Assembly: GCF_007489275.1 (NCBI RefSeq)
Contig: NZ_VLNR01000012.1
Location: forward strand, 44,436 to 108,435
Reading direction: 5' to 3'
DNA from: Aquimarina algiphila
GTDB lineage: Bacteria > Bacteroidota > Bacteroidia > Flavobacteriales > Flavobacteriaceae
Length of the DNA: 64,000 nt
Shown here: positions 8,569 to 18,407 of the stretch, one piece after another
Layout: every line of letters begins with the position of its first letter
Position numbering within the stretch: the stretch's first letter is position 1
Program-made: the position numbers and the translations under genes
The notes under the pieces: generated by a model
Told to the model about the DNA's origin: nothing
The model's database searches: none
What the model saw: only the letters and a program-made list of their open reading frames with translations

Positions 8569-9216
8569 GTGAAAAAAAAGACCATAGTAATTGTTGATGA
8601 TCATCTTTTATTCGCGCAGTCGCTAGAAAGTTTGATTTCTAAGCTTGAAGCATATGAGGTATTAGCGATTCTAAAGAACGGCAAAGAACTTACACAATAT
8701 TATCTTCATAAAAGAAAAACACCAGACCTTATTCTTTTAGATGTAAAAATGCCAGTTATGGATGGTGTGCAAACCATGCAATGGCTTAAGGAAAATAAAC
8801 CAGATCAAAAAGTATTGGCTTTGACCATGGAAGATGATGAAGAAACCATTATCAAAATGCTTAGAGCTGGAGCAAAAGGATATTTGCTTAAAGATATTCA
8901 TCCAGAGAATTTTGAGTTCGCAATGAAGATGGTAATAGAACAAGGGTTCTATTATTCAGGTAAAATAGAAAGTGCATTAAGAAATTCTGAAGGTGTTGAT
9001 ACTAGTAAAAACCTACAAGATAAATTAACAGACAAAGAAAGAGTCTTTTTAAAATTCGCTTGTTCAGAACTTACCTATAGGGATATTGCTGGAGAAATGA
9101 ACCTAAGTCCAAAAACAATAGAAAATTATAGAGAAACTGTTTTTAGAAAGCTAGAAGTGAAAACAAGAGTAGGGTTGGTGATTTATTGTATGAAAAACAA
9201 ATTATTTAAAATCTAG
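8569..9216 (+). CDS. LuxR/NarL-family response regulator
   Basis: A 215-residue protein starting at GTG 8569. The receiver domain occupies residues 4-120, with DD at 10-11, phosphoacceptor Asp58 in LILLDVKMP and a conserved Lys in GYLLKD. A C-terminal LuxR helix-turn-helix follows, with LTDKERVFLKFACSELTYRDIAGEM and SPKTIENYRETVFRKL. It likely controls transcription in response to the kinase encoded at 7550. Target genes are not evident from the sequence. Confidence 0.9.
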   Translation: MKKKTIVIVDDHLLFAQSLESLISKLEAYEVLAILKNGKELTQYYLHKRKTPDLILLDVKMPVMDGVQTMQWLKENKPDQKVLALTMEDDEETIIKMLRAGAKGYLLKDIHPENFEFAMKMVIEQGFYYSGKIESALRNSEGVDTSKNLQDKLTDKERVFLKFACSELTYRDIAGEMNLSPKTIENYRETVFRKLEVKTRVGLVIYCMKNKLFKI

Positions 9217-9275
9217 TGAAACGCTAAATTTTCAAAAGTTTACATATAAAAATATAGGACAATAGAATATTTTGC

Positions 9276-9283
9276 TATATTTG
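9276..9283 (+). promoter_or_regulatory. Putative -7 promoter element for the ilv leader transcript
   Basis: TATATTTG at 9276-9283 matches the Bacteroidota -7 consensus TAnnTTTG and stands 9 bases before the first leader-peptide ATG. No convincing TTTG -33 element is seen at the expected distance, so this is a moderate call. If correct, the first leader ORF would begin almost at the 5' end of the transcript. Confidence 0.4.
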
Positions 9284-9292
9284 ACCATATAA

Positions 9293-9355
9293 ATGGGTAT
9301 AAAAAATATAAATATCAACGCGGTCATTAGTATTGAGGTAATTATTTTACCTTGA
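9293..9355 (+). CDS. Ile/Val/Leu-rich leader peptide 1 (attenuator of the ilv operon)
   Basis: A 20-codon ORF starting MGIKNIN and ending VIILP before TGA. Ten of its 20 residues are branched-chain (7 Ile, 2 Val, 1 Leu). Within it, AGGTAA (9336-9341) can pair with TTACCT (9347-9352) as a pause hairpin. AAGGGAT (9357-9363), just after the stop, can pair with ATCCCTT (9390-9396), the left arm of the downstream terminator, as an antiterminator. This is the layout of a ribosome-mediated transcription attenuator responding to charged tRNA-Ile/Val/Leu. The ORF is too short for gene finders. Confidence 0.78.
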   Translation: MGIKNININAVISIEVIILP

Positions 9356-9384
9356 TAAGGGATCATATTTGATATTCAAAATAT

Positions 9385-9420
9385 AAAAAATCCCTTTACC
9401 TCAGTAAAGGGATTTTTTTT
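9385..9420 (+). terminator. Intrinsic terminator of ilv attenuator 1
   Basis: AAAAAATCCCTTTA (9385-9398) pairs with TAAAGGGATTTTTT (9405-9418) around a 6-base loop and is followed by further T residues. It lies 30 bases past the stop of leader peptide 1. Its left arm can alternatively pair with the AAGGGAT at 9357-9363, giving the mutually exclusive fold expected of an attenuator. Confidence 0.85.
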
Positions 9421-9436
9421 GAACCAAATTTAAAAA

Positions 9437-9499
9437 ATGAACATGTTTAACAACAATAATATCAATGTCATTATTAGTATTGTGATTAGCTCACCATGA
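9437..9499 (+). CDS. Ile/Val-rich leader peptide 2 (second attenuator of the ilv operon)
   Basis: A second 20-codon ORF, starting MNMFNNNN and ending SIVISSP before TGA. It carries 5 Ile and 2 Val in the second half and shares with leader 1 the length, an INxxIxSI core and a Pro-TGA end, so the two are probably duplicates. GTGA (9482-9485) pairs with TCAC (9491-9494) as a pause hairpin near the stop. GAGGGA (9501-9506) can pair with TCCCTT, the left arm of the following terminator, using one G-U pair. It follows the first terminator by 17 bases. Confidence 0.75.
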   Translation: MNMFNNNNINVIISIVISSP

Positions 9500-9532
9500 T
9501 GAGGGATATTGATATGTTAAAAATATAAGAAT

Positions 9533-9559
9533 CCCTTCAAGTATGAAGGGTTTTTTTTT
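9533..9559 (+). terminator. Intrinsic terminator of ilv attenuator 2
   Basis: CCCTTCA (9533-9539) pairs with TGAAGGG (9544-9550) around AGTA, followed by nine T residues. It lies 33 bases past the stop of leader peptide 2 and 249 bases before ilvD. The 9560-9807 stretch that follows holds no further feature that I can identify. Confidence 0.82.
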
Positions 9560-9807
9560 AGACCAAAATGTAGAATTAATTAAAAATTAACAAATAGTGA
9601 TTGTAAAAAAAATGAATATAAATACTTGTTAATCAGTGTTTAAGAAAGGTAAAGTGAGTATTGGATATTGTAAGGGTATTGAATAATCTTTACCCGTTTA
9701 GCCATAAGGAAATAATTTTATACTGTGGTTTATTCAATACGATACAAATGTCGTAAAAGAATAGTTAAAATTTTATCAAATTAATAAAAAACTGGTATTC
9801 AAACGTA

Positions 9808-11484
9808 ATGAGCATCAATAAATATAGTAAACAAGTCACTCAAGATGACACACAGCCTGCAGCGCAAGCAATGCTTCATGCAATTGGTTTAACCGATGAA
9901 GATTTTAATAAGCCTTTAGTCGGGATTGCAAGTACAGGATATGAAGGAAATCCTTGTAATATGCATCTTAATGATCTCGCTAAATTAGTGAAGAAAGGAA
10001 CATTAGAAGAAGATGTTGTAGGACTCATTTTTAATACTATTGGAGTAAGTGATGGGATTTCTATGGGAACTCCGGGAATGCGTTTTTCATTACCTTCAAG
10101 AGATGTGATTGCAGATTCTATGGAAACTGTGGTACAAGCCATGTCTTATGACGGAATGGTAACTGTTGTAGGGTGTGATAAGAATATGCCGGGTGCTTTA
10201 ATGGCTATTTTACGATTGAATCGACCCTCAATTCTGGTGTATGGAGGTACAATAGCTTCAGGACATCATGCAGGTAAAAAATTAGATGTGGTTTCAGCTT
10301 TTGAGGCCTGGGGAGAGAAAGTGGCTGGTACAATTACTCAAACAGAATATAAAAGTGTGATAGAAAAAGCTTGTCCGGGAGCAGGAGCTTGCGGAGGTAT
10401 GTATACTGCCAATACAATGGCATCTGCAATAGAGGCTTTGGGTATGTCATTACCTTATAACTCTTCAAATCCTGCAATTAGTAACAACAAAGAAGAAGAG
10501 AGTATCGCTGCAGGTCGTGCTATGCGAGTACTCTTAGAAAAAGATATAAAACCAAAAGACATTGTAACTAAGAAATCCTTAGAGAATGCAATACGGTTAG
10601 TGACTATCCTTGGAGGATCTACCAATGCAGTATTACACTTCTTAGCCATTGCAAGAGCTGCAGATGTAGATTTTACACTTGCAGATTTCCAGAGAATTAG
10701 TGATGAAACTCCATTCTTGGCAGATTTAAAACCAAGTGGAAAGTACCTTATGGAAGATGTACATGAGGTTGGAGGTATTCCTGCAGTATTAAAATATTTA
10801 TTAAAGAAAGGGTTATTACATGGAGAATGTTTGACTGTAACCGGAAAAACATTAGCAGAAAATTTATTAGATGTTCCTGATCTTACCGAAGGTCAAGACG
10901 TTATAAAACCTTTGGAAAACCCTATCAAACAAACAGGGCACTTGAGAATTATGTTTGGAAACCTATCTGAAAATGGATGTGTTGCAAAAATAACGGGTAA
11001 AGAAGGGTTGCGTTTTCAAGGAAAAGCTAAAGTGTTTGATGGAGAGTATGATGCTAATGATGGGATTAGAGATGGAAAAGTACAAAAAGGTGATGTGGTC
11101 GTCATTAGGTATGAAGGTCCAAAAGGAGGTCCAGGAATGCCAGAAATGCTTAAGCCTACCGCCGCGATTATGGGAGCAGGTTTAGGTAAAGATGTAGCCT
11201 TGATTACCGATGGAAGATTTTCGGGAGGAACCCATGGGTTTGTTGTAGGACATATTACTCCAGAAGCACAAGAAGGTGGTTTGATAGCATTAGTAAAAGA
11301 TGGAGATATCATTACAATTGACGCAGAGACTAATGCTATTACTGTAGATATTGATAAAGAGGAAATAGAAAAAAGAAGAGCTTCTTGGGTACAACCAGAA
11401 TTGAAATTTAGTAAGGGTGTATTGTATAAATATGCAAAAACGGTTTCATCGGCATCGCAAGGATGTGTAACTGATGAATTCTAA
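9808..11484 (+). CDS. ilvD: Dihydroxy-acid dehydratase
   Basis: A 558-residue IlvD/Edd family enzyme that dehydrates 2,3-dihydroxy-isovalerate and -methylvalerate to the 2-keto acids in valine and isoleucine synthesis. The iron-sulfur ligands are visible in [16 protein letters not shown] and [27 protein letters not shown] near the C terminus is also typical. Length is normal for the family. It is the first structural gene of the ilvD-ilvB-ilvN-ilvC-ilvA cluster and is preceded by two leader-peptide attenuators, so its expression is probably set by branched-chain aminoacyl-tRNA supply. Confidence 0.97.
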
Positions 11485-11610: not shown

Positions 11611-13344
11611 ATGGAAACACAAACGCAAACAGTGAAAAAACAAAAGGTAGTAGCAACAGAAAAAATGACTGGTGCTGAAGCGGTAATACGATGTCTTTTG
11701 GCAGAAGGTGTAGATTTGATTTATGGATATCCGGGAGGGGCAATAATGCCTGTCTACGATGAACTCTATAAGTATCAGGATCAGTTACATCATGTATTAA
11801 CCAGACATGAGCAAGGTGCAACACATGCTGCGCAAGGATATGCCAGAACCAGTGGTAGAGTAGGAGTAGCAATTGCAACCTCTGGACCGGGAGCTACTAA
11901 TTTTGTGACTGGAATTGCGGATGCGCAGATCGATTCTACCCCTATGGTTTGTATCACAGGCCAGGTAGGTTCTCATCTTTTAGGTACAGATGCATTTCAA
12001 GAAACAGATATTATTGGAATTTCCATGCCAATTACAAAATGGAATTGCCAGGTAACGAAAGCTGAAGATATTCCAACAGTACTGGCAAAAGCTTTTTATA
12101 TTGCTCGGTCGGGTAGACCAGGACCTGTTCTGGTTGATATTACTAAAGATGCTCAGTTTGGTGAATTAGATTTTATATATGAAAAATGCAAAGGAGTACG
12201 TAGTTATCAGGCAATACCAGAAACAGAACCAAAAAGTCTTGAAGCCGCTGCTAAACTCATAAATGGAGCAAAAAAACCAATGATCGTTTTTGGTCAGGGG
12301 GTAATTCTTGGAGAAGCAGAAGAAGAATTAAAAAACTTTATAGAAAAAACAGGAATACCTGCAGCATGGACAATACTAGGACTTTCTGCATTGCCGACAT
12401 CACATCCATTAAATGTTGGTATGGTAGGTATGCACGGTAATTATGGTCCAAATAAATTAACTAATGAGTGTGATTTATTATTAGCCATCGGAATGCGTTT
12501 TGACGATAGAGTAACAGGAAATCTGGAAACATACGCAAAACAAGCTAAAGTTGTTCATTTTGAAATTGACCCAGCAGAGATTGATAAGAATGTGAAGGCT
12601 GATGTTGCTGTAATGGGAGATGTTAAAAATACACTTGCCAAAATACTTCCTTTGGTAAAATCAAATACACATGATTCGTGGTTTCAGGAATTTAAAGATT
12701 ACGATGCTATAGAATATGATAAAGTAATCAAAGATGAGCTATATCCTAGTAAAGAAGGATTGTCTATGGGAGAAGTGCTTCGAGGGATTAATGAAGAAAC
12801 CAAAGGAGATGCAGTTATCGTATCTGATGTAGGACAGCACCAGATGATTGCATGCAGATATGCAGAGTTTACTAAATCCAAAAGTAATGTTACTTCTGGA
12901 GGGCTAGGTACAATGGGATTTGCATTACCTGCTGCTATTGGTGCAAAAATGGGAGCTCCGGATAGAGAAGTTGTCGCTATAATTGGTGATGGAGGATATC
13001 AAATGACGATTCAGGAGTTGGGTACAATTTTTCAAACCAAAGTACCTGTAAAGATAGTTGTTTTAAACAATGACTTTCTGGGCATGGTAAGGCAATGGCA
13101 ACAACTATTTTTTGATAAAAGATACGCCTCTACAGAAATGGTAAATCCAGATTTTATAAAAATAGCAGAAGGATATCACATAAAATCCACAAGAATAACC
13201 AAAAGAGAAAATTTACAAGATGCAATTGCAGAAATGATCGCGTGTGAAGGCCCTTATTTTTTGGAGGTATGTGTTGAAAAAGAAAATAATGTATTTCCGA
13301 TGATTCCGACAGGAGCATCAGTTTCTGATATAAGATTAGAGTAA
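11611..13344 (+). CDS. ilvB: Acetolactate synthase, large (catalytic) subunit
   Basis: A 577-residue thiamine-diphosphate enzyme of acetohydroxyacid synthase type, which condenses pyruvate with pyruvate or 2-ketobutyrate. Domain order is normal: N-terminal PYR domain with YGYPGGAIMPVYDEL and the catalytic Glu in RHEQGATHAAQGYAR, a central domain, and the C-terminal PP domain with GDGGYQMTIQELGT and the metal-binding NN. It is followed after 2 bases by the regulatory subunit gene ilvN. Confidence 0.97.
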   Translation: METQTQTVKKQKVVATEKMTGAEAVIRCLLAEGVDLIYGYPGGAIMPVYDELYKYQDQLHHVLTRHEQGATHAAQGYARTSGRVGVAIATSGPGATNFVTGIADAQIDSTPMVCITGQVGSHLLGTDAFQETDIIGISMPITKWNCQVTKAEDIPTVLAKAFYIARSGRPGPVLVDITKDAQFGELDFIYEKCKGVRSYQAIPETEPKSLEAAAKLINGAKKPMIVFGQGVILGEAEEELKNFIEKTGIPAAWTILGLSALPTSHPLNVGMVGMHGNYGPNKLTNECDLLLAIGMRFDDRVTGNLETYAKQAKVVHFEIDPAEIDKNVKADVAVMGDVKNTLAKILPLVKSNTHDSWFQEFKDYDAIEYDKVIKDELYPSKEGLSMGEVLRGINEETKGDAVIVSDVGQHQMIACRYAEFTKSKSNVTSGGLGTMGFALPAAIGAKMGAPDREVVAIIGDGGYQMTIQELGTIFQTKVPVKIVVLNNDFLGMVRQWQQLFFDKRYASTEMVNPDFIKIAEGYHIKSTRITKRENLQDAIAEMIACEGPYFLEVCVEKENNVFPMIPTGASVSDIRLE

Positions 13345-13346
13345 TT

Positions 13347-13880
13347 ATGGAAAAAGAAAATTTTACGATATCGGTATATACCGAGAATAATATAGGATTG
13401 CTAAATAGGATATCGGCAATATTCCTGAAGCGTCACATCAATTTGGATAGTATGACAGCTTCTGCTTCAGAAATCAAAGATGTGTTTCGATTTACTATAG
13501 TGGTGAAAATAACCGAAGAACAAGTAAAAAAGTTAATTGGTCAAATCGAAAAGCAGATCGAAGTTATAAAAGCATTTTATCATAAAGATGAAGAGACTAT
13601 TTATCAGGAGACAGCATTGTTTAAGGTAGCTTCAAAGTTATTGTTTGAAGATCGCCAGATTCAGAATGTAATTAAGAATAGTAATGCTAATATTGTTACT
13701 GTGACTCCAGAGTTTTTTGTGTTAGAGAAAACAGGAAGACGAAGAGAAGTAGAAGCTTTGTATCACAAATTAGAACCTTTTGGGCTGATGCAATTTGTGC
13801 GTTCTGGCAGAATTGCAGTTACAAAAGATAAAATGCATATTTCTAAAATATTAGAAAGTTTTGGATCAGAGACTGTGTAA
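13347..13880 (+). CDS. ilvN: Acetolactate synthase, small (regulatory) subunit
   Basis: A 177-residue protein with an N-terminal ACT domain (FTISVYTENNIGLLNRISAIF at about 5-25) and a C-terminal ALS small-subunit domain. It binds the catalytic subunit and confers valine feedback inhibition in the family. It starts 2 bases after ilvB and is surely co-translated. The ilv-style gene name is used; ilvH would be equivalent. Confidence 0.94.
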   Translation: MEKENFTISVYTENNIGLLNRISAIFLKRHINLDSMTASASEIKDVFRFTIVVKITEEQVKKLIGQIEKQIEVIKAFYHKDEETIYQETALFKVASKLLFEDRQIQNVIKNSNANIVTVTPEFFVLEKTGRRREVEALYHKLEPFGLMQFVRSGRIAVTKDKMHISKILESFGSETV

Positions 13881-14020: not shown

Positions 14021-15496
14021 ATGGCAAATTATTTTAATACGCTATCATTAAGAGATCAATTAACACAATTAGGAAAATGTAGATTCATGAATTCTGAAGA
14101 ATTTTCAGGAGGAATTGATGCACTAAAAGGAAAAAAGATGGTTATCGTTGGATGCGGTGCCCAAGGTCTTAATCAGGGACTAAATATGAGAGATTCTGGT
14201 TTAGATGTTTCATATGCACTTCGTGAAGGAGCTATAAAGGAGAAAAGACAATCTTTTATCAATGCATCTGATAATGGATTTAATGTTGGAACTTATGAAG
14301 AATTAGTACCTCATGCAGATGTGGTTATTAATCTTACTCCAGATAAGCAGCATACTCAAGTAGTAAATGCGGTAATGCCTTTAATGAAACAAGGAGCTAC
14401 TTTATCATATTCTCATGGTTTTAATATTGTAGAAGAAGGTACTCAGGTAAGAGAGGATCTTACTGTAATTATGGTAGCACCTAAATGCCCAGGGTCAGAA
14501 GTAAGAGAAGAATATAAAAGAGGTTTTGGGGTGCCAACATTAATTGCGGTACACCCAGAGAATGACCCTCAGGGACATGGTTTAGAACAAGCAAAGGCAT
14601 ACGCTGTAGGAACAGGAGGAGATAGAGCAGGAGTATTAGAATCTTCATTTGTTGCCGAAGTAAAATCTGACCTCATGGGCGAGCAAACAATTCTTTGTGG
14701 ATTGTTGCAGACAGGGTCAATTTTATGTTTTGATAAAATGATAGAAAAAGGAATTGATGCAGGTTATGCTTCTAAATTGATTCAATATGGATGGGAAACC
14801 ATTACCGAAGGGTTAAAATATGGTGGAATCACCAATATGATGGATCGATTATCCAATCCTTCAAAAGTGAAAGCTTTTGAATTATCAGAGGAATTAAAAG
14901 AGATTATGCGTCCACTATTTCAAAAACATATGGATGATATTATTTCTGGTCATTTCTCTAAAACAATGATGGAAGATTGGGCGAATGATGATAAAAACTT
15001 ATTATCATGGAGAGCCGCAACGGGAGAGACAGCATTCGAAAAAACTCCTGCTGGTGATGTAGAGATTTCTGAACAAGAATTCTATGATAACGGTGTGTTA
15101 ATGGTTGCTCTTGTAAGAGCAGGTGTTGAGTTGGCTTTTGAAGCTATGACAGATTCTGGAATCATAGAAGAATCAGCATACTATGAATCTTTACATGAGA
15201 CTCCTCTTATTGCCAATACTATTGCACGTAAAAAGTTATTTGAAATGAACCGTGTTATTTCTGATACTGCAGAGTATGGATGTTATCTTTTTGATCATGC
15301 ATGTAAACCATTACTTACCGATTTTATGAAGAAAATCGATACCGACGTAATCGGAAAAAAATACGATGAAGGAAGAAATAATGGTGTAGATAATGCTAAG
15401 TTAATAGAAGTAAATGCGGCATTGCGTAATCACCCTATCGAAGTTGTTGGAGCTAGACTTAGAGCGTCTATGACCGCAATGAAACCGATAGTCTAA
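14021..15496 (+). CDS. ilvC: Ketol-acid reductoisomerase, class II (long form)
   Basis: A 491-residue enzyme, the length of class II reductoisomerases with a duplicated C-terminal helical domain (class I is about 330). The Rossmann NAD(P)-binding motif [20 protein letters not shown] is near residue 43, and acidic Mg ligands occur in [10 protein letters not shown] and again in the second helical repeat. It converts acetolactate or acetohydroxybutyrate to the dihydroxy acids used by IlvD. It lies within the ilv operon between ilvN and ilvA. Confidence 0.96.
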
Positions 15497-15603: not shown

Positions 15604-16869
15604 ATGAGCTCTGTCATTACTACATATTTTCCTGAATTAGAAGATATCCAGAAAGCAGCTTCTATAATCAAAGAAGTAGCCATGGTCACTCCACTAATGG
15701 ATAGTATTCGTTATTCTCGTAGATATGAAGCTAATGTTTTATTAAAGAGAGAAGATCTCCAGAGAGTTCGATCTTATAAAATTAGAGGAGCTTTTAATAA
15801 GATTAGTTCACTTACCAAAGAAGAGTTAGAAAAAGGAGTGGTATGTGCTAGTGCGGGTAATCATGCTCAGGGAGTTGCATTTGCATGTAATCATTTGGGA
15901 ATCGAAGGTACCATATATATGCCTTCGGTAACTCCAAAACAAAAAATTGCTCAAACAGAAATGTTTGGTGGAGACTATGTAAAAATTGTTCTTGAAGGAG
16001 ATACTTTTGATGATTCATTTAAAGCTGCTATGGAAGCTTGTAAGTCTCAAGGGAAAACTTTTGTTCATCCCTTTGAAGATCCTAAAACAATAGAAGGACA
16101 AGGGACAATCGGCCTCGAGATTTTTAAGCAAGCAGATGTGACTATAGATTATATTTTTGTAGCTATTGGAGGAGGGGGGTTGGCATCAGGATTATGTGGT
16201 GCTATGAAAGCTTTATCACCAAAAACAAAAATTATCGGAGTAGAGCCTAAAGGGGCACCATCTATGTTATCTTCTATACGAAATAATAAGAATACAGAGA
16301 TTTTTGATATTGATAAATTTATTGATGGAGCCGCTGTTCAAAAAGTAGGAGATCTTAATTTTGAAATTTGTAAAGAATACTTATCCGATATGTATACAGT
16401 ACCTGAAGGATTAGTATGTCAGACTATCTTAGATCTGTATAATAGAGATGCTATAGTCGTCGAACCGGCTGGAGCTTTAACTCTTGCTGCATTGGAGTTT
16501 TATAAGGACAAAATTAAGGGTAAAAATGTCGTGTGTATTGTAAGTGGAAGTAATAATGATATTACGCGTACAGCCGAAATTAAAGAAAGAGCTCTATTAT
16601 ATGCAAACTTAAAACATTATTTTATTGTTCGCTTTCCACAAAGAGCGGGTGCTCTAAAACAATTTGTAGGCGAAGTATTAGGCCCTAACGATGATATTAC
16701 ACATTTTGAATATTCAAAAAAATCAAGCAGAGAGAATGGCCCTGCTGTGGTTGGAATAGAATTAAAAGACAAAAAGGATTTAGAGCCTTTAATCTCCAGA
16801 ATGAAAGAGCTTAATTTCTTTGGAGATTATCTAAATGATAAACCAGATTTGTTTCAATTTCTCATTTAA
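15604..16869 (+). CDS. ilvA: Threonine ammonia-lyase (biosynthetic threonine deaminase)
   Basis: A 421-residue PLP enzyme, providing 2-ketobutyrate for isoleucine synthesis. The PLP lysine lies in RVRSYKIRGAFNK, the glycine-rich phosphate loop is IGGGGLASG, and a C-terminal regulatory ACT-like domain (RFPQRAGALKQFVGEVLG onward) is present, as in the short IlvA form. It ends the ilv cluster; 168 bases and a separate promoter separate it from the next gene. Confidence 0.95.
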   Translation: MSSVITTYFPELEDIQKAASIIKEVAMVTPLMDSIRYSRRYEANVLLKREDLQRVRSYKIRGAFNKISSLTKEELEKGVVCASAGNHAQGVAFACNHLGIEGTIYMPSVTPKQKIAQTEMFGGDYVKIVLEGDTFDDSFKAAMEACKSQGKTFVHPFEDPKTIEGQGTIGLEIFKQADVTIDYIFVAIGGGGLASGLCGAMKALSPKTKIIGVEPKGAPSMLSSIRNNKNTEIFDIDKFIDGAAVQKVGDLNFEICKEYLSDMYTVPEGLVCQTILDLYNRDAIVVEPAGALTLAALEFYKDKIKGKNVVCIVSGSNNDITRTAEIKERALLYANLKHYFIVRFPQRAGALKQFVGEVLGPNDDITHFEYSKKSSRENGPAVVGIELKDKKDLEPLISRMKELNFFGDYLNDKPDLFQFLI

Positions 16870-17037: not shown

Positions 17038-17613
17038 ATGAAAAAATTTTTACTCTTTGCTGCGATTGCTTTGTTAGGAATTACAGCTACAAATGCACAA
17101 GTTAAGCTTGGTTTTGGTATTGGTTATGCTCTTCCAACTGGAGATATAGCAGACTATACTGATGGCGGGGTTTCTGCCCATTTAGAATTGGGATATGGTG
17201 TTACAGAAGATATTGATGTATCTATTTTAGCACAAGGAGACTTCTTAGTAGGAGGTGATCAAACTATTAATGGTCAAAATGTATCTTTTGGAGCTATTGC
17301 CCTAAGTAGTTATCTTTTAAATGGTCGTTACTATTTTAGAAAAGAAGGATTTAGACCTTATGGTAGTTTAGGTTTAGGTCTTACTTCTATCGGTTCTGTA
17401 GAAATAGAAGCAAATGGCGTTACCGGAGATGTAGAAGCGGCGGAAAGTACATCAAATTTTGCAATTCGTCCAGCACTTGGTTTTAAGTATGGTGTTCTTA
17501 ATATGAATGTAGCATATTTGAGCGCAGGTAAAACTGGAGAAGGAGATTTTGAACAATCGGTTAGCGATTTTACAATAAACCTTGGTCTTTTATTTACTTT
17601 TGGAGGAAACTAA
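17038..17613 (+). CDS. Porin-family outer-membrane beta-barrel protein (paralogue 1)
   Basis: A 191-residue protein with a signal peptide MKKFLLFAAIALLGITATNAQ and a mature part of alternating hydrophobic strands ending in LGLLFTFGGN. This fits an eight-stranded barrel of the OmpW/OmpX-like porin family. The adjacent gene at 17832 encodes an almost identical protein, so the pair arose by recent tandem duplication. The ligand or role is unknown. Confidence 0.8.
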   Translation: MKKFLLFAAIALLGITATNAQVKLGFGIGYALPTGDIADYTDGGVSAHLELGYGVTEDIDVSILAQGDFLVGGDQTINGQNVSFGAIALSSYLLNGRYYFRKEGFRPYGSLGLGLTSIGSVEIEANGVTGDVEAAESTSNFAIRPALGFKYGVLNMNVAYLSAGKTGEGDFEQSVSDFTINLGLLFTFGGN

Positions 17614-17635
17614 TTCAATCAAATATATAATATAA

Positions 17636-17666
17636 AAAGACGATCTGAAAAGGTCGTCTTTTTTGT
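17636..17666 (+). terminator. Intrinsic terminator after porin-like gene 1
   Basis: AGACGATC pairs with GGTCGTCT (one T-G wobble) around TGAAAA, flanked by A residues on the left and TTTTTT on the right. It lies about 25 bases past the stop codon. The same hairpin recurs after the second copy, showing that the terminator was duplicated with the gene. Confidence 0.85.
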
Positions 17667-17831
17667 TTTAAATACGGTCTAGAAATAAATTTATATAAAA
17701 ATTAAGTATTTTAAAGTGTTGTTTTTTAGCGAGTTAAATAGGTTTGTGAGTGTTTTGTATTGCAGTGATGCGTTTTTGGTCTGATAGTTGGTTAGTAAGA
17801 TATTCAACATAAATTAATTAATATTTCAATT

Positions 17832-18407
17832 ATGAGAAAATTTTTATTATTAGCTGCAGTTGCATTATTAGGAATGACTGCTGCAAACGCGCAAGTTAAA
17901 CTTGGTTTTGGTGTTGGATATGCTCTTCCTACTGGGGATATAGCAGACTATACCGATGGAGGGGTTTCTGCACATCTAGAATTAGGATATGGCGTTACCG
18001 AAGATATTGACGTATCTATTTTGGCGCAAGGTGACTTCTTAGTAGGAGGTGATGAAACTATTAATGGGCAAAATGTATCTTTTGGAGCTATTGCATTAAG
18101 CAGTTATCTTTTAAACGGTCGGTATTATTTTAAGAAGGAAGGGTTTAGACCTTATGGAAGTTTAGGTTTGGGTATTACTTCTATTGGATCAGTAGAAGTA
18201 GAAGCTACAGGAAATACAGGAGATGTAGAAGTAGCGGCAAGTACATCAAACTTTGCAATTCGCCCTGCAATTGGTTTTAAATATGGCGTTCTTAATATGA
18301 ATGTTGCGTATTTGAATGCAGGTAAAACAGGAGAAGGAAACTTTGAACAATCTGTTAGTGATTTTACAATAAATCTTGGCCTATTATTTACTTTTGGAGG
18401 AAACTAA
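17832..18407 (+). CDS. Porin-family outer-membrane beta-barrel protein (paralogue 2)
   Basis: A 191-residue near copy of the preceding protein, with signal peptide MRKFLLLAAVALLGMTAANAQ. Differences are few and mostly conservative (I/V, Q/E, R/K), with a small cluster around residues 120-135. The reading frame is intact, so both copies are probably functional. It has its own upstream gap of 165 bases after the first terminator. Confidence 0.8.
   Translation: MRKFLLLAAVALLGMTAANAQVKLGFGVGYALPTGDIADYTDGGVSAHLELGYGVTEDIDVSILAQGDFLVGGDETINGQNVSFGAIALSSYLLNGRYYFKKEGFRPYGSLGLGITSIGSVEVEATGNTGDVEVAASTSNFAIRPAIGFKYGVLNMNVAYLNAGKTGEGNFEQSVSDFTINLGLLFTFGGN

Follow-up and report, generated by a model that had tools for sequence, protein, structure and literature searches.

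Why is the ilv operon of an Aquimarina-like genome preceded by two predicted leader-peptide units in series? We analysed a window of 64,000 nucleotides, the whole stretch of DNA considered here, from a genome whose IlvD is up to 95% identical to those of Aquimarina loci among the best 80 matches listed. On the basis of Pfam matches, ilvD (9808-11484, plus strand) is the first gene of a presumed operon that continues on the same strand with ilvB (11611-13344), ilvN (13347-13880), ilvC (14021-15496) and ilvA (15604-16869), the last gene listed. Farther along, at 17038-18407, two adjoining ORFs of 191 amino acids suggest, by eye, an outer-membrane-type protein present in two almost identical tandem copies; the segment 2272-5828 holds a metal-transporter-like ORF and then further ORFs, which we take to resemble 5-oxoprolinase (PxpABC)-type subunits. 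The upstream neighbour of the leader region is a luxR-type response-regulator gene (8569-9216), and between its end and ilvD lie two leader-terminator units in tandem. With a probability of roughly 0.86, we propose that these two predicted leader-peptide units, placed behind one predicted promoter and before ilvDBNC-ilvA, are consecutive ribosome-controlled gates that answer to the same signal, the charging of Ile- and Val-tRNA.

The first-pass annotation of this DNA had described two 20-codon ORFs rich in Ile and Val and ending in Pro-TGA, and both are present and conserved in the genus. Leader 1 (MGIKNININAVISIEVIILP, plus strand) runs from an ATG at 9293 to a TGA at 9355 and contains seven Ile, two Val and one Leu codon; leader 2 (MNMFNNNNINVIISIVISSP, plus strand) runs from an ATG at 9437 to a TGA at 9499 and contains five Ile and two Val codons. 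An intrinsic terminator is predicted between leader ORF and first structural gene in both units. T1 (9385-9420) has a stem of 15 pairs at 9385-9418 and a T run to 9420, and is listed by the terminator scan on the minus strand; T2 (9533-9559), found by the scan on the plus strand, has a stem of seven pairs at 9533-9550 and a T run to 9559. Measured by our detector, the gaps from stop to stem are 31 nt in gate 1 and 33 nt in gate 2, close to the 30 bases first estimated.

The pairings that had been proposed around each stop codon were likewise recovered. Both ORF-end hairpins appear in the folds, AGGTAA/TTACCT in gate 1 (9331-9357, with 9331-9341 paired to 9347-9357) and GTGA/TCAC in gate 2 (9482-9494, with 9482-9485 paired to 9491-9494). 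Past the stops, the putative antiterminator strands AAGGGAT (9357-9363) and GAGGGAT (9501-9507) can each pair with an ATCCCTT in the left arm of their terminator, at 9390-9396 and 9531-9537 respectively. Each gate also has a candidate protector helix, P1, formed by ORF codons: in gate 1 its 5' strand (9310-9326, codons 6-12) pairs with 9360-9377 and part of the helix is present in the minimum free energy fold, and in gate 2 the 5' strand (9458-9477) pairs with 9497-9516 and the helix is largely present. Fold energies were low compared with shuffled sequence at gate 1 (z = -4.85; 0 of 200 shuffles as low) and at gate 2 (z = -2.69; 4 of 200).

A motif scan of the plus strand, the only strand scanned, found TATATTTG (9276-9283) as the sole strict match to the Bacteroidetes -7 element (TAHHTTTG) in the intergenic region 9216-9807, and found none after leader 1. 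This consensus and its spacing of 4-5 nt come from Flavobacterium johnsoniae (PMC6847099, the portion consulted); applying that spacing to 9276-9283 gives a predicted transcription start at 9288-9289 and hence a predicted 5' UTR of 4-5 nt for leader 1. Over the window and its relatives, TATTTG or TAnnTTTG lies at most 24 nt from the ATG of 42 of 67 first or only leaders as against 1 of 46 second leaders, and looser -7 motifs lie near the ATG of 57 of 67 and 5 of 46. Since such elements are rare before second leaders, the second unit has by this measure no promoter of its own.

To find similar units, we used a detector that accepts an ATG ORF of 12-35 codons with at least 30% Ile+Val and a stop shortly 5' of a terminator. 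Neither 802,270 dinucleotide-shuffled bases nor 686,090 bases of control DNA taken from downstream gave a match. On the whole 64-kb window the detector returned both units and one extra match on the plus strand (56582), taken as chance, and nothing on the minus strand. Applied to at most 1 kb before ilvD in 81 regions (the best 80 loci listed, a choice that leans to near relatives, and the window), it found a pair in 20, a single unit in 19 and none in 42. When up to 3 kb were read with unchanged settings, ten more pairs appeared, all before ilvE, giving 30 pairs in the same 81 regions; some of the zeros are explained in this way, because the units precede ilvE where ilvE directly adjoins ilvD. 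These ilvE-ilvD operons (L023, L026, L027, L035, L036, L041, L042, L049, L064 and L071) come from Tenacibaculum, Gelidibacter, Bizionia, Kordia and two uncultured lineages, among others. The L023 protein passes the NCBIfam cut-off for IlvE, and the proteins of ten other ilvE-type loci (including L044) are 52-94% identical to it. What the pair precedes is thus the operon's first gene, which need not be ilvD.

Slightly looser settings yielded 81 gates from 51 regions, 30 of them with a pair. Two loci, L016 and L044, have pairs under relaxed criteria only and so lie outside the 30 strict pairs and within the 32 of the IlvD tree, on which L052, L058 and L063 are counted as single by the relaxed criteria. 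The leader ORFs appear enriched for the amino acids to be regulated; in the 81 gates, which include the window's two, this enrichment is part of the search criterion. The tree has 81 rows, and explaining the pair state on it takes 14 changes, of which well-supported branches force at least six; it was built by a quick method, with 17 of 78 inner branches starred, and does not distinguish gain from loss.

Conservation in relatives, on which the earlier proposal depended, was evident within the genus: both ORFs are kept, and 27 of 30 loci from the same genus have the pair, with 12 of the 30 (10 with a pair, 2 without) duplicating loci of the best-80 set. Two of the three pairless loci are from MAGs (L103, identical with L014, 1.5 kb upstream read; L109, identical with L019, 1.06 kb), and directly upstream in the third, L107, the opposite strand carries a gene resembling ilvB (84% identity over 444 residues). 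Three further genus genomes are outside this count, two matched without a locus and one without a match. Four records named Aquimarina (L051, L057, L067 and L077) have no unit and fall outside the main Aquimarina set on the tree. For a wider view we sampled the family with one genome from each of 100 genera; IlvD was matched in 76, and about 2 kb of upstream sequence was read for 74 of these. Thirty of these genera had no unit, 35 a single unit, eight a pair and one a triple (a far match in L174 being discounted), and 151,482 bases of these upstream regions gave no antisense detector match. The pair therefore seems to be kept in several genera, with single units commoner outside Aquimarina. 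An exact pattern for the B-type pair, GGAAGGCTTTT...GCCTGTATC, had matched 3 of 397 family genomes, was too strict and was replaced by the reading of upstream regions.

Other sequences at or near these operons were examined as well. Between T2 and ilvD a stretch at 9580-9745 is strongly conserved, with the core TGGATATTGTAAG at 9662-9674; 25 of 30 genus loci have TGGATRTTGTAAG at most 420 nt from the start of ilvD, in most cases some 140 nt upstream, and it is also found in the MAG locus L103, which has neither gate. A structured RNA was considered for this stretch and rejected, as RNAalifold gave no compensatory pair there; it is perhaps a further control site. Control by leucine was likewise considered and not supported: the leuA candidate L112 is preceded by a coding region and a gap with no terminator-leader unit, by eye or by detector, and the locus of the leuA candidate L111 showed no terminator.

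If the two units are attenuators, each post-stop strand should fit the terminator of its own gate. The gates fall into four terminator classes, the first gates into A1 (CCCTTT) and B1 (CTTCC) and the second gates into A2 (CCCTTC) and B2 (CCTGTATC); the A classes are Aquimarina-type, and B1 comprises first gates outside Aquimarina. Across all four, the post-stop strands track the terminator class. In 81 gates the native antiterminator duplex had a mean energy of -9.34 kcal/mol, compared with -6.22 kcal/mol when partners were swapped overall and -8.79 kcal/mol when they were swapped within classes, and in either case none of 5000 permutations was as low. B1 showed the weakest antiterminator (native -7.25 vs -6.50 within class, z = -1.46). 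A repeat with 48 further gates of 39 genomes, leaving out the L174 match at -2017 and L116, L121, L128, L132 and L135 (whose leaders the first set had included), gave -9.31 vs -7.20 (0 of 5000). These results suggest that an antiterminator that excludes the terminator has been kept through sequence change.

The same approach pointed to a protector helix between the regulatory codons and the antiterminator strand. Pairing of mid-ORF codons with the post-stop strand was stronger in native than in swapped combinations (-11.26 vs -9.17; 0 of 5000), and again in the 48 further gates (-11.92 vs -9.17; 0 of 5000). Within class A2, native protectors were no better than those swapped inside the class, where 2879 of 5000 permutations reached an energy as low.

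A count of compensatory changes in an alignment, to which the first-pass annotation had looked for support, gave a mixed result for the terminator and a negative one for the antiterminator. In 17 Aquimarina-type sequences, 93.7% of T1 cells were paired and the covariation score of 0.161 exceeded every shuffle and slide; changes on both sides affected three pairs in eight cells, which a slide of +3 matched with four pairs in eight cells, so that T1 is distinguished by its percentage paired and its covariation score only. For the antiterminator, alignment A2 yielded no compensatory pair, and a one-column slide paired better (82.4 vs 77.3%). We attribute this negative result to shifts in register of the post-stop segment in that alignment; the swap tests are independent of any alignment. 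Column-wise counts within a genus are the weaker evidence.

We then modelled ribosome stalling by keeping the RNA unpaired up to the ribosome's downstream edge and folding the transcript as far as the left arm of the terminator. For the window's gates, the antiterminator had a probability of 0.01 when no ribosome was present and of 0.00 when the stop codon occupied the A site; stalling 3 to 15 codons ahead of the stop raised it to 0.85-0.93 in gate 1 and 0.83-0.91 in gate 2. Over the 81 gates, the probability at the stall was 0.87 in native sequence and 0.29 once the spacer had been shuffled; codon-shuffled ORFs lost the protector, with a median probability without ribosome of 0.84 compared with 0.07 in native sequence. 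The switch exceeded 0.5 in 63% of the 81 native gates and in 14% of spacer-shuffled ones. Not every gate behaves cleanly in the model, and the state without ribosome is only partly off, with a mean probability of 0.29 over the 81 gates, 0.44 in A1 and 0.47 in A2. In leaders of class A1 (n = 16) and class A2 (n = 17), neither Ile nor Val occurs at the final two codons, and Ile is the fourth codon counted back from the stop in 94% and 88% of them; Ile and Val thus avoid the two positions at which stalling would be of no use. Leader 1 has its single Leu codon in the next-to-last position, and in the model a stall there only half frees the antiterminator (0.48). The model predicts that a ribosome stalled on Ile or Val codons frees the antiterminator strand and that one at the stop masks it.

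From the anatomy, its conservation, the co-variation of antiterminator and terminator across classes and an equal Ile:Val ratio at the two gates, we infer how leader translation, termination, the response to amino acids and multiplication of the gates could work. With plentiful Ile and Val, a ribosome reaching the stop would cover the antiterminator strand, the terminator would form and RNA polymerase would stop. Without a ribosome, the protector helix of Ile/Val codons would hide the same strand and termination would again be favoured. A ribosome halted by uncharged tRNA at an Ile or Val codon, at least three codons before the stop, would melt the protector; the post-stop strand could then pair with the terminator's left arm and let the polymerase pass. 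In 53 pairs the median distance from the T1 stem to the start of leader 2 is 20 nt, and leader 2 would therefore exist only in transcripts that have passed gate 1 and be translated by another ribosome. Readthrough should therefore approximate the product of both gates, so that the off state would be tighter, and the response steeper, than with a single gate. On balance we favour a serial array in which ilv transcription in these Flavobacteriaceae would be licensed only after two (in one genome three) different ribosomes have stalled in turn on like Ile/Val codons, the gates being multiplicative, renewed by tandem duplication in separate lineages and beginning near the 5' end of the mRNA.

Do the two gates read the same signal? 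The first-pass annotation had the second weighted differently, to Ile and Val only. Because both gates share one Ile:Val ratio over the 53 pairs (327:122 at gate 1, 359:137 at gate 2; Fisher p = 0.88; L174 and L132 left out), with little Leu in either (36 and 29 codons), this difference in weighting was not supported. As far as codon content goes, the two ORFs do not seem to read different signals as those of mgtCBR do. Unequal gates, differing in amino acid or in starvation threshold so that the response would be graded and not multiplied, are nevertheless the alternative that survives best, unlikely as we consider it. Protector, terminator and spacing are unlike between the gates; Ile+Val is slightly denser at gate 2 (four-way chi-square with Leu and others, p = 0.051); and in the part of the source available to us, the tandem attenuators of mgtCBR read two signals (PMC3641672). 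Sensitivity might also be tuned through Val codons, of which GTC and GTG make up 63 of 73 in A1 and 85 of 97 in A2; the same two account for 20% of 1006 Val codons in 39 long ORFs of the window. Rare Val codons could raise sensitivity, and the GTC and GTG codons of the leaders also sit within predicted helices. Set against these points, the shared Ile:Val ratio and the rarity of Leu speak for repeated sampling of one signal with multiplied readthrough, which would be the simplest reading of two gates.

Still less likely, in our judgement, is that one unit alone works as an attenuator and the other is a decaying duplicate or a backup without effect. Relatives often have a single unit, as the counts by genus show, and even within Aquimarina two loci (L004 and L007) hold one each; T2 of the window is also weak, at -8.8 kcal/mol compared with -15.1 kcal/mol for T1. 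Yet over the 53 pairs mean terminator strength is not lower at gate 2 (-16.6 vs -15.3 kcal/mol), the second-gate classes A2 and B2 show native antiterminator pairing (-10.82 and -10.33) and the same stall behaviour, and nine in ten genus loci keep both units. Most improbable, and already disfavoured, is the view that there is no attenuation and that these are ordinary terminators of the luxR-type gene, which ends about 170 nt before T1, beside chance or microprotein ORFs whose own Ile+Val excess is modest (binomial p = 0.005 for leader 1 and 0.054 for leader 2), since the units recur with a different or opposite-strand upstream gene and stand before the first operon gene, the antiterminator co-varies in both gate sets and the detector is blank in shuffled and control DNA.

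How did the second gate arise? Duplication had been suggested from the similarity of the two units, and we found signs of it. All 33 Aquimarina second leaders align better with B1 than with B2 leaders of other genera, and for 30 of the 33 the closest of the other classes is A1. Leaders of class B2 give poor alignments with all leaders, themselves included (35.2 vs 24.6 for codon-shuffled sequence), which weakens the argument from leader resemblance. The triple (L173, G148:C40) has three leader-terminator units in series at -1325 to -988 before ilvD, followed by an aminotransferase-like frame taken as ilvE; its units 2 and 3 are nearly identical, with few bases differing, and probably reflect a recent tandem duplication. 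Given the resemblance of gate 2 to gate 1 in Aquimarina together with this triple, tandem duplication has likely occurred in more than one lineage. Gene conversion or shared constraint could also account for likeness between gates.

The E. coli ilvGMEDA operon has the classical ilv leader-peptide transcription attenuator. Among serial cis elements, tandem T-boxes sense tRNA directly and have no leader peptide. No Rfam family of leaders, T-boxes or riboswitches matched the 64-kb window at its gathering score; at E <= 1 there were 12 weak matches in 9216-9807, all below gathering (for example Phe_leader, E 0.042, and Thr_leader, E 0.24). For Bacteroidetes, ilv attenuators may have been listed before by Lopatovskaya et al. 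2010 (Mol Biol 44:128). Further ilv attenuators are described, in the excerpts consulted, for Listeria rli60-ilvD (PMC5864092) and Corynebacterium ilvBNC (PMC10272879, PMC11857589). The Aquimarina-type leaders resemble the classical ones in their short branched-chain-rich ORF, their antiterminator and terminator alternatives and their site before the first ilv gene; the classical systems, in the portions of the sources seen, have one leader ORF, whereas here two, and once three, full units stand in series. In the same family, leader-peptide attenuators have been predicted before amino-acid operons of Flavobacterium psychrophilum (PMC9723704); the word ilv is absent from the main text as available to us, which describes no serial pair, and its Table S7 could hold one. 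Short leader-peptide-like ORFs in long 5' UTRs are reported in the accessible part of a Bacteroides transcriptome study (PMC7366714).

Other leaders with two elements provide the closest comparisons. As in Salmonella mgtCBR, a single leader mRNA carries both short ORFs of the ilv pair, and each would govern elongation; mgtCBR, on the pages at hand, responds additively to two different signals, ATP and proline, without intrinsic terminators (PMC3641672), whereas the ilv pair has the same Ile/Val codons and a predicted intrinsic terminator at both gates. The two-attenuator leader of msrD (PMC10314930) is also serial, its signal in the text available being macrolide exposure, and tandem riboswitches such as that of B. 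clausii metE (PMC3641672, in part) sense the metabolite directly, without a leader peptide. In our searches of the open-licence PMC literature we found no earlier report of serial leader-peptide gates for the same amino acids. The kind of attenuator is known; its serial, same-signal form is new as far as the search reached, and the locus is best described, from its sequence, as classical leader-peptide attenuation in an unusual serial form.

Shine-Dalgarno sites are absent in F. johnsoniae (PMC6847099, as far as that source was seen), and the proposed mechanism, if true, would imply coupling of transcription and translation at leaders in a group that lacks them. Because relatives with one, two and three gates exist, the dependence of gain on gate number is directly testable. 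If the gates multiply, these cells would sharpen a leaky RNA switch by copying it.
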